Both the position numbers and the translations under genes were made by a program. 64,000 bases of DNA, taken from the NCBI RefSeq assembly GCF_013402875.1, contig NZ_CP058579.1, positions 1,488,001-1,552,000 on the forward strand, in the 5' to 3' direction. Below the pieces are notes generated by a model, which worked only from the letters and a program-made list of their open reading frames with translations, was not told the origin of the DNA and made no database searches. The stretch is from Halorarum salinum. Lineage in GTDB: Archaea > Halobacteriota > Halobacteria > Halobacteriales > Haloferacaceae. Position 1 is the first letter of the stretch; each line of letters opens with the position of its first letter. Shown one piece after another: positions 36,400 to 42,432 of this stretch.

Positions 36400-38625
36400 A
36401 TGAACGAAGTCCAACTCGAAGTTGCGAAAGCCTACCCGAACGACTCGGGGCGCGGCATCGCGCGTCTCGACCCCGACACCCTGCTCCACCTGAAGCTCTC
36501 CCCCGGTGACATCATCGAGATCGAGGGCGCGGAGACGACCGCCGCGAAAGTGTGGCGCGCCGACCGGCAGGACTGGAACACCGACACCGTCCGCATCGAC
36601 GGGTTCACCCGCCAGAACGCCGACGTCGGCATCGGCGAGCGGGTCACCATCCGCAAGGCCGAGGCGACGAAGGCCGAGAGCCTGACGCTCGCTCCCCCCG
36701 AGGAGGCGTCGGTCCAGTTCGGCTCGGACGCGGCGGGCATGGTGAAACGACAGATCCTCAAGCGGCCGGTCGTCGAGCGCGACATCGTCCCCGTGATGTC
36801 GAGCACGAACCACCCGTTCATGCGCTCGCCCGGCCAGGCCATCCCGCTCATCGCGGTCGACACCGAGCCGGAGGGCGTCGTCCTCATCACCGAGGACACC
36901 GAGGTCGAACTCCGCGAGGAGCCCATCTCCGGGTTCGAGAAGACGGGGGGCGGCATCACCTACGAGGACATCGGCGGCCTCCAGGGCGAGATCCAGCGCG
37001 TGCGGGAGATGGTCGAACTCCCGATGAAGCACCCGCAGATCTTCCAGAAACTCGGCATCGAGCCGCCCCAGGGCGTCCTGCTTCACGGCCCGCCCGGCAC
37101 CGGGAAGACGCTGCTCGCCAAGGCGGTCGCCAACGAGACGAGCGCCTCGTTCTTCTCCATCGCGGGCCCCGAGATCATCTCGAAGTACTACGGCGAGTCC
37201 GAACAGCAGCTCCGGGAGATCTTCGAGGACGCGAAGGACGACTCACCGTCGATCATCTTCATCGACGAACTGGACTCCATCGCGCCCAAACGCGAGGACG
37301 TCACCGGCGAGGTCGAGCGCCGCGTCGTCGCCCAGTTGCTGACGATGATGGACGGGCTGGAGACGCGGGGACAGGTCATCGTCATCGCGGCGACGAACCG
37401 CGTCGACTCGGTCGACCCCGCGCTCCGCCGACCCGGCCGCTTCGATCGCGAGATCGAGATCGGCGTGCCGGACGAGTCCGGCCGCAAGGAGGTGCTGCAG
37501 ATCCACACCCGGGGGATGCCGCTCTCGGACGACGTGAACCTCGACCGCCTGGCCGACGAGACGCACGGCTTCGTCGGCGCCGACATCGAGAGCCTGACGA
37601 AGGAGGCCGCGATGAAGGCGCTCCGCCGGTACCTCCCCGAGATCGACCTCGACGAGGAGGACATCCCGCCGAGCCTCATCGACCGGATGATCGTCAAGCG
37701 GAGCGACTTCCACGGGGCGCTCGCCGACGTCGAGCCCTCGGCGATGCGGGAGGTGCTCGTCGAACTCCCGAAGATCACCTGGGACGACGTGGGCGGCCTG
37801 GAGGACCCCAAACAGAAGGTGAAGGAGGCCGTCGAGTGGCCGCTCTCCGACCCCGAGAAGTTCGACCGGATGGGCGTGGAGGCGCCGAAGGGCATCCTGC
37901 TGTACGGCCCGCCCGGCACCGGGAAGACGCTGATGGCGAAGGCCGTCGCCAGCGAGACGAACGCGAACTTCATCTCCGTCAGGGGGCCACAGCTCCTCTC
38001 GAAGTGGGTCGGCGAGTCCGAGAAGGCGATCCGGCAGACGTTCCGGAAGGCCCGGCAGGTCTCCCCGACCATCATCTTCTTCGACGAGTTGGACAGCCTC
38101 GCGCCCAGCCGCGGGCAGGAGATGGGCAACAACGTCTCCGAGCGCGTCGTCAACCAGCTGCTCACCGAGCTCGACGGGCTGGAGGAGATGGGCGACGTGA
38201 TGGTCATCGGCGCGAGCAACCGGCCGGACATGATCGACCCGGCGCTGATCCGCTCGGGTCGGTTCGACCGCCTCGTGATGATCGGCCAGCCGGACGAGGA
38301 GGGTCGCGAGCAGATCCTCAAGATCCACACCGGCGACACGCCGCTGGCGCCCGACGTGAGCCTCCGCGAACTCGCGGAGATCACCGACGGCTACGTCGGC
38401 TCCGACCTGGAGTCGATCGCCCGCGAGGCCGCCATCGAGGCGCTCCGGGAGGACGACGACGCCGAGGAGGTCGGGATGCGACACTTCCGCCAGGCGATGG
38501 AGAGCGTTCGTCCGACGATCACCGACGACATCCTGAGCTACTACGAGGGCGTCGAGGAGCAGTTCAAGGGCGGCGGGACGGACTCGCTGCGCAGGGACCA
38601 GGGCGGCCGGATCGGGTTCCAGTAG
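36400..38625 (+). CDS. AAA+ ATPase CDC48/VAT
   Basis: 741-aa unfoldase, hexameric, which feeds proteins to the proteasome. N-domain residues 1-~180 (double-psi barrel), D1 with Walker A GPPGTGKT at about 230 and Walker [14 protein letters not shown]2 with GPPGTGKT at about 502 and [13 protein letters not shown]; arginine-finger regions [13 protein letters not shown] and [12 protein letters not shown]. Length and order match Thermoplasma VAT. The ATG at 36400 matches the usual MNEVQLEV start. A structured element follows the stop immediately. Confidence 0.97.
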
Positions 38626-39033
38626 AACCTCTTTTGCCGGGGGCGCGCTCGCTCGTCGACCCCCCGCAAAACCCGGTGATGCCAAAACGCCGCCCGCTGG
38701 TGCCGACTGCGGTCGGTCAGTCGGCTTCGTTTCCGTCCGGAGCGTTCTCTCGCCGGCCGGTTCCGATCGCGCTCCGCCGGTCCGAGCGATCGGAACGGAC
38801 GGAGCGCACGCTGATCGCTCCTGTACCTCCAGGAGTCCGGCGTGAAACGGCAGTTCTCCGTCTGAGCCCGTGACCCCGCTTGGTAAGTATCGGGACCGTA
38901 TCTCGACGGAATCCGCACCGTAATTCGACGGCAATCCGTGAGTAGGCACATGGCCGAACGCGTCGTTAGGCGGACATAAGATGGCGAAACCGGATTCGCG
39001 ACGGGAGCAGCGTTCGGCGGCATCGACCCGACG
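38626..39033. other. Intergenic region after cdc48
   Basis: 408 bases: the 3' stem motif, unremarkable GC-rich sequence, then a 22/23-bp tandem repeat at 38895-38939 (ACCGTATCTCGACGGAATCCGC, ACCGTAATTCGACGGCAATCCGT) that could be an operator of the next gene, and a possible TATA GACATAAG at 38973-38980. Confidence 0.55.
38631..38672 (+). terminator. 3'-end stem motif after cdc48
   Basis: Six bases past the TAG: TTTTGCCGGGGG ... CCCCCGCAAAA (left about 38632-38643, right 38661-38671) pair over ~11 bp with one bulged C. The same motif follows phoU. Likely marks or shapes the mRNA 3' end. Confidence 0.6.
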
Positions 39034-40795: not shown

Positions 40796-41124
40796 GCACT
40801 AACGTTCGCCGATTTTTCGGAAGACGGTTCTGGTCGGACTCTAGAAGCGAGGTCGTCGGGCGCGAACCCGGCCGTTCGGCGGTCTCCCGGCGGAACGCAC
40901 GCTTCCCGGCCGCGCCCGACCGGACGCGTTCGCCATCGGGCGCGCTTGCGCGATCGCCCTCGGGAACGGCGGTGGCAGCGTCGTCGCCGCTCCGAAGCCG
41001 TGGTGGGAACGTCGAACCCGCGGGAGCGGGGTCCGCGGGAGGTCCGACGCGACCGACCGCGTACGAAGGGGACCCGCCATCGCCGGGGGCGGACGACGCC
41101 AGCGGCGGTACCGCGAGCGAGGGA

Positions 41125-41340
41125 GGCGTGGCGGAGCCACGCCGACCGTGACCGGAGGATCGGGGCTCGCGGCCTTTTGGCACTGACGAGCGGAGCTCGT
41201 CTTGCGGCCAGAAACCGACGGGTTCTGGCAGCATTACGGGAAATCTTCGATCTCCCGTCAGCAGTGGGATTCCAGCGGAATCCCACAGCACGAACGGTTT
41301 TGCGGGGTTCGACGAACGCGGGCGGCGTAGCCGCCCGCGT
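41125..41340. repeat. Array of six trinucleotide-loop hairpins
   Basis: Arms and loops in order: GGCGTGGC/GGA/GCCACGCC (41125-41143); GACGAGC/GGA/GCTCGTC (41185-41201); CCAGAAACC/GAC/GGGTTCTGG, one mismatch (41208-41228); ACGGGAAATC/TTC/GATCTCCCGT, one mismatch (41236-41258); GTGGGATTCC/AGC/GGAATCCCAC (41264-41286); ACGCGGGCGGC/GTA/GCCGCCCGCGT (41316-41340). The last sits inside an outer stem TTTTGCGGGG (41298-41307) / CCCCGCAAAA (41350-41359) adjoining the phoU stop. Confidence 0.85.
41147..41165. repeat. 19-bp direct repeat, left copy
   Basis: CGTGACCGGAGGATCGGGG, identical to 42352-42370; the two copies flank phoU and its hairpin array. Confidence 0.85.
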
Positions 41341-41369
41341 GAGGAGGACCCCCGCAAAAGAGGTCCGTT

Positions 41370-42044
41370 CTAGTAGATGAGTTCGTCGTCGTTCTCGAGC
41401 ATGTAGAGGGTACGGGCGGCGATGTTGACCGCGTGGTCGCCGACCCGCTCCAGGTCCCGGATGGTGAGGAGCAGGCGGGAGACGTCCGCCATGATGTCCT
41501 CGACGTCCTCCTCCGAGTCGACGCCCTCGCGCTGGATGAGGTCGCGGACGACCGCGGAACTGGCCTCCTCGCACATCGCGTCGACGTCGTCGTCGGCCTC
41601 CGCCACCTCGTAACAGGCGGCGGTGTCCTCGTCGGCGTAGGCGTTCATCGCGTCCTCCAGCATGTCGAGAGTCGCCTCGCCGATGCGCTGGACGTCCACG
41701 TCCGGGAACACGTCGCGCTGGGCCTCCAGCGTGTACCCCCCGAGGTTCGTCGCGAGGTCGCCGATGCGCTCGAGGTCGGTGATGATCTTGAACGACGCCG
41801 CGATGAAGCGCAGGTCGCCCGCCACCGGCTGCTGGAGCGCCAGGAGGTCGACGCAGTCCTGTTCGAGTTCGAGGTAGAGCCGGTTCACCTCGGCGTCCTC
41901 CTCGATGACGCGGTTGGCGAGCTCCTCGTCCTTCTGTTCGAGCGCGTCCATCCCCATCCGCAGGCGCTCGGCGACGAGTTCGCTCATGTAGAGCACGTCC
42001 TCTCGAAGCTCCGCGAGGCGTTCCTGGTACTGTTTCCGGGGCAT
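41370..42044 (-). CDS. phoU: PhoU-type phosphate uptake regulator
   Basis: 224 aa from MPRKQYQERLAELRED; two PhoU three-helix repeats (E-x-x-L-D-A-x-x-x-D motifs, FIAASFKIITDLERIGDLATN and LLLTIRDLERVGDHAVNIAA, carrying the metal-binding E/D residues). Modulates the Pst transporter. A longer reading from ATG 42089 exists, but TATA-like CGTGTAAGCGTT centred 27 nt before 42044 favours this start and suggests a promoter separate from pst. Followed at once by the structured 3' element. Confidence 0.92.
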   Translation of the reverse strand: MPRKQYQERLAELREDVLYMSELVAERLRMGMDALEQKDEELANRVIEEDAEVNRLYLELEQDCVDLLALQQPVAGDLRFIAASFKIITDLERIGDLATNLGGYTLEAQRDVFPDVDVQRIGEATLDMLEDAMNAYADEDTAACYEVAEADDDVDAMCEEASSAVVRDLIQREGVDSEEDVEDIMADVSRLLLTIRDLERVGDHAVNIAARTLYMLENDDELIY

Positions 42045-42432
42045 ACCCGAACTGTCGTCGGGCGGCGTGTAAGCGTTGCCCTCGGTCACCCCCTTCGGGT
42101 ACGGGACTCACACGGGGGCTCCGGAGGTCACGGGCGGGCGATTCGAGGTCCGACCGGGCTCGGGACGTCGCCGACTGGCCGCTGGTTTCGTCGGTCGACG
42201 CGCGAGCGGAACGGGACGCGGACGGGAAAACGAGCGTGACCGGATCGTGGAACTGGAGGAGAGACCGGAAGCGGGACCGGGGGAGACCTGGTCAGGAGCG
42301 ACTGGGGGAGACCAGATCAGGAAGCGGTACTGGAGGAGGCGGATCGGGAAACGTGACCGGAGGATCGGGGTGAGAACGGGATCGGAATCGACGGGCCCCT
42401 CCCGCCCGGATCCGACGACGGCGTCCGCCCGG
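42045..42432. other. Spacer between pstB and phoU with purine-rich repeats
   Basis: 388 bases. Contains the phoU promoter (42066-42077), two GGGGGAGACCWGRTCAGGA repeats at 42279-42297 and 42304-42322, further GGA/GGG runs, and the right copy of the 19-bp direct repeat at 42352-42370. No gene supported. Confidence 0.6.
42352..42370. repeat. 19-bp direct repeat, right copy
   Basis: Exact match to 41147-41165, same orientation, 1205 bp apart, flanking phoU. Confidence 0.85.

Follow-up and report, generated by a model that had tools for sequence, protein, structure and literature searches.

Why should six hairpins, each closed by a loop of exactly three nucleotides, lie one after another downstream of phoU in the haloarchaeon Halorarum salinum? 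A sequence-only reading of the window (the whole stretch of 64,000 nucleotides that was analysed) had described them as having unrelated stems, and had taken their regular geometry to imply selection on shape or a process producing inverted duplications with a fixed 3-nt spacer.

Results

A cluster of six hairpins downstream of phoU

The six hairpins are real. All were recovered at positions 41125-41340, with the loop trinucleotides originally listed (GGA, GGA, GAC, TTC, AGC and GTA), and from left to right in the window they are the inner stem of an outer palindrome (H2), hairpins B2, A2, B1 and A1, and the inner stem of a second outer palindrome (H1):

41125-41143: hairpin, inner stem of H2, 8 bp, loop GGA
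41185-41201: hairpin B2, 7 bp, loop GGA
41207-41229: hairpin A2, 10 bp with 1 mismatch, loop GAC
41236-41258: hairpin B1, 10 bp with 1 mismatch, loop TTC
41261-41289: hairpin A1, 13 bp with 1 mismatch, loop AGC
41316-41340: hairpin, inner stem of H1, 11 bp, loop GTA

Stems with a single mismatch had been reported as well, but with the stems extended as above (7-13 bp) they number three rather than two. When the 276-bp stretch was subjected to 2000 dinucleotide shuffles, the mean was 0.35 hairpins and the maximum 4, against the six observed. The cluster is the densest 240 bp in the 64-kb window, the next separate places holding three hairpins, and RNA folding of the hairpin stretch gave z-scores of -8.65 (plus strand) and -9.62 (minus strand). 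Since the whole window contains 153 hairpins with 3-nt loops, compared with 149-175 in three shuffles and hence no excess, it is the cluster that is special and not the genome background.

Anatomy of the phoU 3' element

The sense strand of the element is the phoU strand, that is, the minus strand of the window, and the features recognised in it, together with a second element of the same window, are the following:

41370..42089, minus strand: phoU coding sequence (ORF list and sequence)
41370-41372, minus strand: phoU TAG stop, overlapping the first base of the element
41110..41370, minus strand: complete composite 3'-end element, made up of the base element and two units, delimited by full-length copies elsewhere in the genome; the unit-free base form is also found
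41356..41359, minus strand: TTTT tract, within the 5' arm of H1 and about 10 nt past the stop codon
41292..41370, minus strand: H1, outer palindrome adjoining the stop, GAAC...TTTTGCGGGG...CCCCGCAAAA..GTTC, with inner hairpin 41316-41340 (loop GTA)
41289..41291, minus strand: GTG (usually ATG), foot of H1, with the units entering right behind it, as judged from empty and occupied copies
41232..41288, minus strand: twin-hairpin unit 1, 57 bp, match to covariance model R1
41181..41231, minus strand: twin-hairpin unit 2, 51 bp, with a shorter B hairpin (sequence and genome copies)
41110..41174, minus strand: H2, second outer palindrome, GGCCGC...GCGGT, with inner hairpin 41125-41143 (loop GGA)
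38625..38713, plus strand: a further, short base element of the window that carries no units, directly after a cdc48-like gene

Read in this way, the phoU locus is a composite of two repeat families, a palindromic base element and a 57-bp twin-hairpin unit. Unit 1 is laid out as CTG, hairpin A (41265-41285), CTGCTGA, hairpin B (41237-41257) and TAATG, and its R1 match spans C1:1529229-1529293 of the window genome (G000); unit 2 reads CTG, hairpin A (41208-41228), CCGCAAG, hairpin B (41186-41200) and CAGTG, and is separated from H2 by CCAAAA. The general layout is hairpin A, linker CTGCTRA, hairpin B and TRATG. The stems are thus not unrelated, as had been supposed, nor are the hairpins six independent ones: four of them come from an order-wide two-hairpin unit present here in two copies, and the remaining two are inner stems of the flanking palindromes.

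The base element follows stop codons and is kept after the same genes

The window genome (4.26 Mb) gave 28 matches to the 401-bp query and 37 to the base-element query. Of the 26 elements placed in it, 24 had an upstream ORF, and in 23 of these the stop lay, in gene direction, within about 31 nt of the element start, the remaining one being at 53 nt. Among relatives, 108 of 128 base-element records were found 0-25 nt downstream of a stop, versus 11% of random positions; an upstream ORF was counted if it had at least 60 codons, and 15 of the 128 records had no long ORF upstream. In the copies parsed the base element measured 89-154 bp.

The base element abuts the stop codons of unrelated genes and is oriented along the gene. 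The genes upstream, a mixed set of housekeeping genes named from sequence, include phoU, cdc48 and porB-like, carA-like, polD-small-subunit-like and truB-like genes, among others; they have no common pathway, and a dedicated regulon is not supported. The element is common to the same gene across genomes (cdc48-like, 10; phoU, 8; porB-like, 6) and was found at the same genes in the congeners G001 and G002 and in several genera of the family. On the 3' side of the cdc48-like gene it was present in 9 other parsed genomes, 4 of which carried units there, and when 30 phoU 3' ends were read by eye, 12 had the element, 1 a fragment, 6 a diverged form (GAACCTTTT-hairpin-AAAAGGTTCATCAAAA-hairpin) and 11 none. 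The T-tract adjoins the stop, which suggests that the base element doubles as a 3'-end or termination signal, and such a role would explain why it has long been kept after the same genes.

Some variation within the element was seen in passing. The inner part of H1 exists in two sequence types, each of which also occurs inverted between the GGGGG/CCCCC stem (L014, L030 and L088 versus L015, L017 and L009), and loops such as TTC/GAA are present in both orientations. At L080 (Candidatus Halobonum) and L100 (window genome) the element ends abruptly right after GTTCATGC with unrelated sequence beyond, the sequence past the break in L080 being possibly an insertion element.

The number of units changes in steps of two hairpins

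When the same gene is compared between genomes, the base element proves much more stable than its units. A comparison of array size had been proposed at the outset for strains; between congeners, it disclosed two units after phoU in H. salinum, one in G001 and none in G002; likewise, the porB-like gene is followed by 0 units in H. salinum, 2 in G001, 0 in G002 and 1 each in G006 and G033. Over 113 records, array lengths were 0-4 nt in 71, 52-59 nt in 26 and 108-117 nt in 11, and the longest were one of 165 nt and one of 217 nt, whereas three odd lengths (73, 73 and 76) stem from false anchors. For these counts and the identity counts below, arrays of more than 230 nt were dropped; a small number of records rest on anchors that are false or double (as in L034, L069 for its first record, L071 on the plus strand, L079 for its second record and L118 on the plus strand), and L118 and L154, counted as 4 nt, really carry a unit whose first hairpin was mistaken for the right anchor. 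Array lengths thus step by one unit, that is, by two hairpins, and the proposal that hairpins arise singly through a process with a fixed 3-nt spacer finds no support in them.

In the window genome, 7 of the 23 records with a coding gene upstream had an array of 108-109 nt and 16 had none, and all seven loaded copies carried the same two-unit block. Units were present in 12 of 15 records in G001 and in 5 of 13 in G002 (one of the empty G002 records being a second anchor inside L079). Identities of H1/H2 were 0.714/0.709 for orthologous copies, 0.723/0.726 for paralogous copies and 0.677/0.691 for unrelated between-genome pairs; these are small differences and a weak test, from which gene conversion among dispersed copies would seem to keep the copies of one genome alike.

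Occupied and empty sites

The boundaries of the unit are defined by sites found with and without it. In the base element, empty sites read GTTCATG/CCAAAA and occupied ones GTTCATG(57 bp)CCAAAA. Genomes of genus g14 commonly contain another kind of palindromic element, and in it the unit follows TTTCGTGATG. Ahead of elements of this kind (L149, L152, L157 and L163) stand repeats with a TTATAAA-like motif and CCAAAGCCCCAGCCGC, and long-range pairing is possible between the outer strands of these elements (CAAAG-CCCC-AGCCGCGAGGAC with GTCCTCGCGGCT-GCCC-CTTTG); the elements are possibly transcribed RNA genes.

Right ends of TnpB elements form the third setting; here the unit lies inside the last tnpB codons and antisense to tnpB. 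Read in sense, empty right ends are GAGGGTG/GGGCTTCC (or close to it) and occupied ones GAGGGTG(57 bp)GGGCTTCC. Of 12 aligned right ends, 7 were empty, 4 carried the unit as a clean insertion of 57 bp that keeps the reading frame, and 1 had a different hairpin pair there. The 109-residue TnpB tail of Halobacterium sp. DL1 was fully covered by at least 37 plasmid records among the matches listed, and 33 of the 37 listed full-tail records measured 270-273 nt instead of 327. In the DL1 plasmid (L367:2463-2792), the in-frame 57-bp unit adds 19 residues to this RNA-guided nuclease. A different hairpin-pair insert occupies the same tnpB place in L374, and the tnpB tail of a Halorussus halophilus plasmid (L375) has a pair of 3-nt-loop hairpins elsewhere, upstream of the usual insertion site.

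Each of the three settings has TG at a palindrome's foot just before the unit, and ATG as the unit's last letters. The insertion point is ambiguous by at most the 2-bp TG. The base element itself was found at none of 31 TnpB loci searched with R2, and the idea that it is a TnpB right end is not supported; its likeness to one TnpB right end is loose (GAAC plus a palindrome plus TG). With R1, a further 31 TnpB loci yielded nothing stronger than weak matches, the top one scoring 37.5 bits.

The twin-hairpin unit is an order-wide family

R1 is a covariance model of the unit whose consensus derives from an alignment of 27 units. In this alignment, 16 of the 21 pairs show changes on both sides, and 98.4% of the 567 cells are paired, versus 81.8% in shuffled alignments and no more than 47.6% when partners were slid. 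The covariation score was 0.482 against 0.168 when shuffled, and none of 500 shuffles was as high on the pairing and covariation measures. Matches to R1 were obtained in 142 of 170 genomes of the family (E<=1e-3) and in 170 of 293 Halobacteriales genomes representing 63 of 87 genera (E<=1e-6), with scores of up to 88 bits. Outside the order, weak matches appeared in 7 of 124 genomes (from a phylum sample of 148), the best having 29 bits and an E of 1.4e-6. Copy numbers are lower bounds, 17-35 candidates per genome having been scored for R1 and 19 for R2. Conservation of the array in relatives, which had been named beforehand as a test, is observed at the level of the repeat family.

Geometry was studied in 80 distinct units, taken from the best 85 of 173 matches (the lower-ranked ones being mostly reverse-strand echoes of the same units), which yielded 125 distinct hairpins. 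An odd length compatible with a 3-nt loop was seen in 121 of these, and in 117 of the 121 the loop is closed by a Watson-Crick pair; the length is 21 nt precisely in 111 of the 125, 96 are perfect, and the letters of the loop vary freely. It is for the four middle hairpins of the phoU cluster that the suggested selection on shape is supported, as length, 3-nt loop and pairing are kept throughout the order while stem letters change on both sides.

The linkers are constrained as well. The second base before and the second after hairpin B form a purine contact that is A.G in 59 units, G.A in 20 and G.C in 1, with A.A or G.G in none of the 80. The position flanking hairpin A is T-G in 41, C-G in 31, T-A in 8 and C-A in none. 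Stem mismatches on the sense strand are G.T in 20 cases and A.C in 8 (p 0.036, with hairpins treated as independent, which they are not); a Fisher's test made alongside likewise takes no account of relatedness. This bias and that of the linker pair suggest that it is the sense strand which folds, either as RNA or as single-stranded DNA. A C/D-box or kink-turn reading of the TGATG/CTGA-like linkers was also considered and rejected: CTGA is present in only about 20 of the 80 units, most having CTA(A/G).

Searches for known relatives gave the following picture. Rfam returned no match above the gathering score for window positions 40800-41600 and none for seven element loci except an unrelated sR-tMet; the phage collection searched contained no match, and no description of this twin-hairpin unit was recognised in the literature searched, in which PMC3119063 alone dealt with PATEs and SMRs. 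A GTDB pattern scan retrieved 36 stretches, of which 10 were haloarchaeal (4 Halobonum, 3 Halobaculum and 3 Halolamina) and the remaining 26 look like chance.

Discussion

Origin of the unit

We believe that the twin-hairpin unit is a small non-autonomous mobile repeat of the REPIN/PATE kind which stacks by insertion after its own end, and we give this reading a probability of roughly 0.58. According to it, the base element would be fixed right after stop codons and in gene direction, and the unit would act as single-stranded nucleic acid in its folded form, entering behind the TG at a pre-existing palindrome's foot; as the foot of the second hairpin carries the ATG with which the unit ends, each copy would offer a new target, and tandem stacking would produce 2, 4 and 6 hairpins. 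The unit boundaries, the occupied and empty sites, the order-wide distribution, the covariation and the strict hairpin geometry are there to be read in the genomes. That the unit moves, or has moved, as DNA in the manner of REPINs and PATEs is argued from the comparison of sites and not from an observed move. Self-insertion would be the simplest account of stacking, tandem duplication being the alternative.

What could move the unit is less apparent. The Y1 transposase (PF01797) was not found in the window genome, nor in G001, G002, G163, G020 and G248; it was present in 11 of the 16 genomes of the comparison that included these last five. Five of the six PF01797-free genomes carry many units, and G020 has 4 R1 matches. 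In addition, TnpB is nearly or wholly absent in genus g1, with one broken TnpB in the window genome and none in G001. Varying stems and loops fit poorly with sequence-specific recognition, since hairpins of the REP type keep their sequence. In the left ends of IS608, the left target and the foot of the hairpin are not adjacent. The unit differs in that its left target adjoins the 5' foot of hairpin A, and therefore the known guide and cleavage geometry does not carry over directly. A bolder version, which we hold to be doubtful, is that the unit represents mobile DNA recognised by shape throughout the order, in which any 21-nt hairpin with a 3-nt loop, the right linkers and an A.G or G.A contact would serve, and a mover other than Y1 would target palindrome feet and build stacks at the 3' ends of genes, which the host would long have retained behind the same genes.

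Alternatives were weighed against the mobile-repeat reading. The hairpins could be part of a functional 3'-end RNA: transcription would end at the T-tract of the base element, and a structured 3' UTR, or a terminator or insulator made of clustered hairpins, would protect mRNA ends or block read-through, units being added because more structure is better. Elements lie nearly always just past stop codons in gene sense and are retained after the same genes in several genera, and a T-tract with TC stands at the right place, the TTTT tract resembling the T-stretch terminator of Haloferax (PMC7237163). Moreover, hairpin clusters are reported or proposed as terminators in bacteria (PMC8355165), and the excess of G.T over A.C (20 versus 8) and the lack of C-A at the linker pair are what a folded sense strand predicts. 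However, the strand bias is equally expected for single-stranded DNA, and the T-tract precedes the hairpins, so that efficient termination would leave them untranscribed; the host genes, as read from sequence, share no pathway, many copies have no units, and the unit also resides in tnpB ends, antisense to tnpB. We consider this explanation unlikely.

A scaffold role in the guide RNA of TnpB (omega RNA), with solitary copies as leftover right ends, is very improbable, even though several loci have units at the right end of tnpB, within its last codons, and a relation to IS605 ends is described for the PATEs of Haloquadratum (PMC3119063). Most TnpB relatives carry no unit (33 of the 37 listed full-tail rows, 270-273 nt versus 327), 31 further TnpB loci gave only weak R1 matches (best 37.5 bits) and none with R2, and the strand bias favours the opposite strand; it is the 7 empty right ends among the 12 aligned, and the many units of G001, which has no TnpB, that lead us to reject it. 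Neither do we favour a neutral by-product, in which template switching or gene conversion would yield near-perfect inverted repeats with small loops, devoid of function or transposition. Loops and the inner part of H1 in both orientations would be expected from it, as would paralogous copies as alike as orthologous ones (H2, 0.726 versus 0.709), and small inversions and arm-to-arm copying may indeed add to the near-perfect arms. As a full explanation it is improbable: linkers and the 21-nt hairpin length are kept order-wide, chance hairpin pairs outside the order reach only 29 bits versus up to 88 inside it, and the inserts are precise at 57 bp.

The family shows that a small transposase-free repeat can persist across a whole order through shape and linkers and not through sequence. 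Occupied and empty sites make gain and loss of units directly countable, and the covariance model can be used for annotating haloarchaeal genomes. The findings also raise the questions of what moves or homogenises units where there is no Y1 transposase, and of whether units alter the 3' ends of housekeeping genes.

Comparison with known systems

The elements resemble terminators made of hairpin clusters and T-tracts in their position right after stop codons, their T-tract and their clustered hairpins, but here the hairpins come after the T-tract and are copies of a dispersed family. BOX elements are built from boxA, boxB and boxC modules. With them, the composite shares fixed end modules and a variable number of middle modules; it differs in sequence and domain of life, its end modules are kept after the same genes across genera, and the hairpin pair that forms its middle module occurs in other places as well. 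For the BOX elements of Streptococcus pneumoniae, a modular build and a strong secondary structure are reported (PMC3049150).

REPINs are REP doublets moved by RAYT transposases, short extragenic repeats that sometimes form tandem clusters (PMC3116915). As in REPINs, two neighbouring hairpins make up one short non-autonomous extragenic repeat, and the arrays step by pairs. In contrast, the stems and loops of our unit vary with compensation while only linkers, lengths and pairing are kept, there is no Y1/RAYT partner in the window genome, G001 or G002, and the unit is spread order-wide in archaea.

Among haloarchaea, PATEs and SMR-A are transposase-free palindromic repeats of Haloquadratum, and SMR-A (PMC3119063) is about 110 bp long, has prominent terminal inverted repeats and inserts into the near-terminal palindromes of PATE and IS605 with no target duplication. 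The base element is PATE-like in being too short to code and in having palindromes near both ends and, by inspection, no terminal inverted repeat, although a relation of its ends to those of IS605 type finds no support (R2, 0 of 31 TnpB loci). The unit, for its part, is like SMR-A in its insertion at a palindrome foot with an ambiguity of at most TG, and is set apart from it by description, with 57 bp, or 108 bp for the two-unit block, against about 110 bp. Taken as a whole, this comparison makes it most likely that the unit is, in its way of working, nearest to REPINs and to the PATE/SMR repeats of Haloquadratum.
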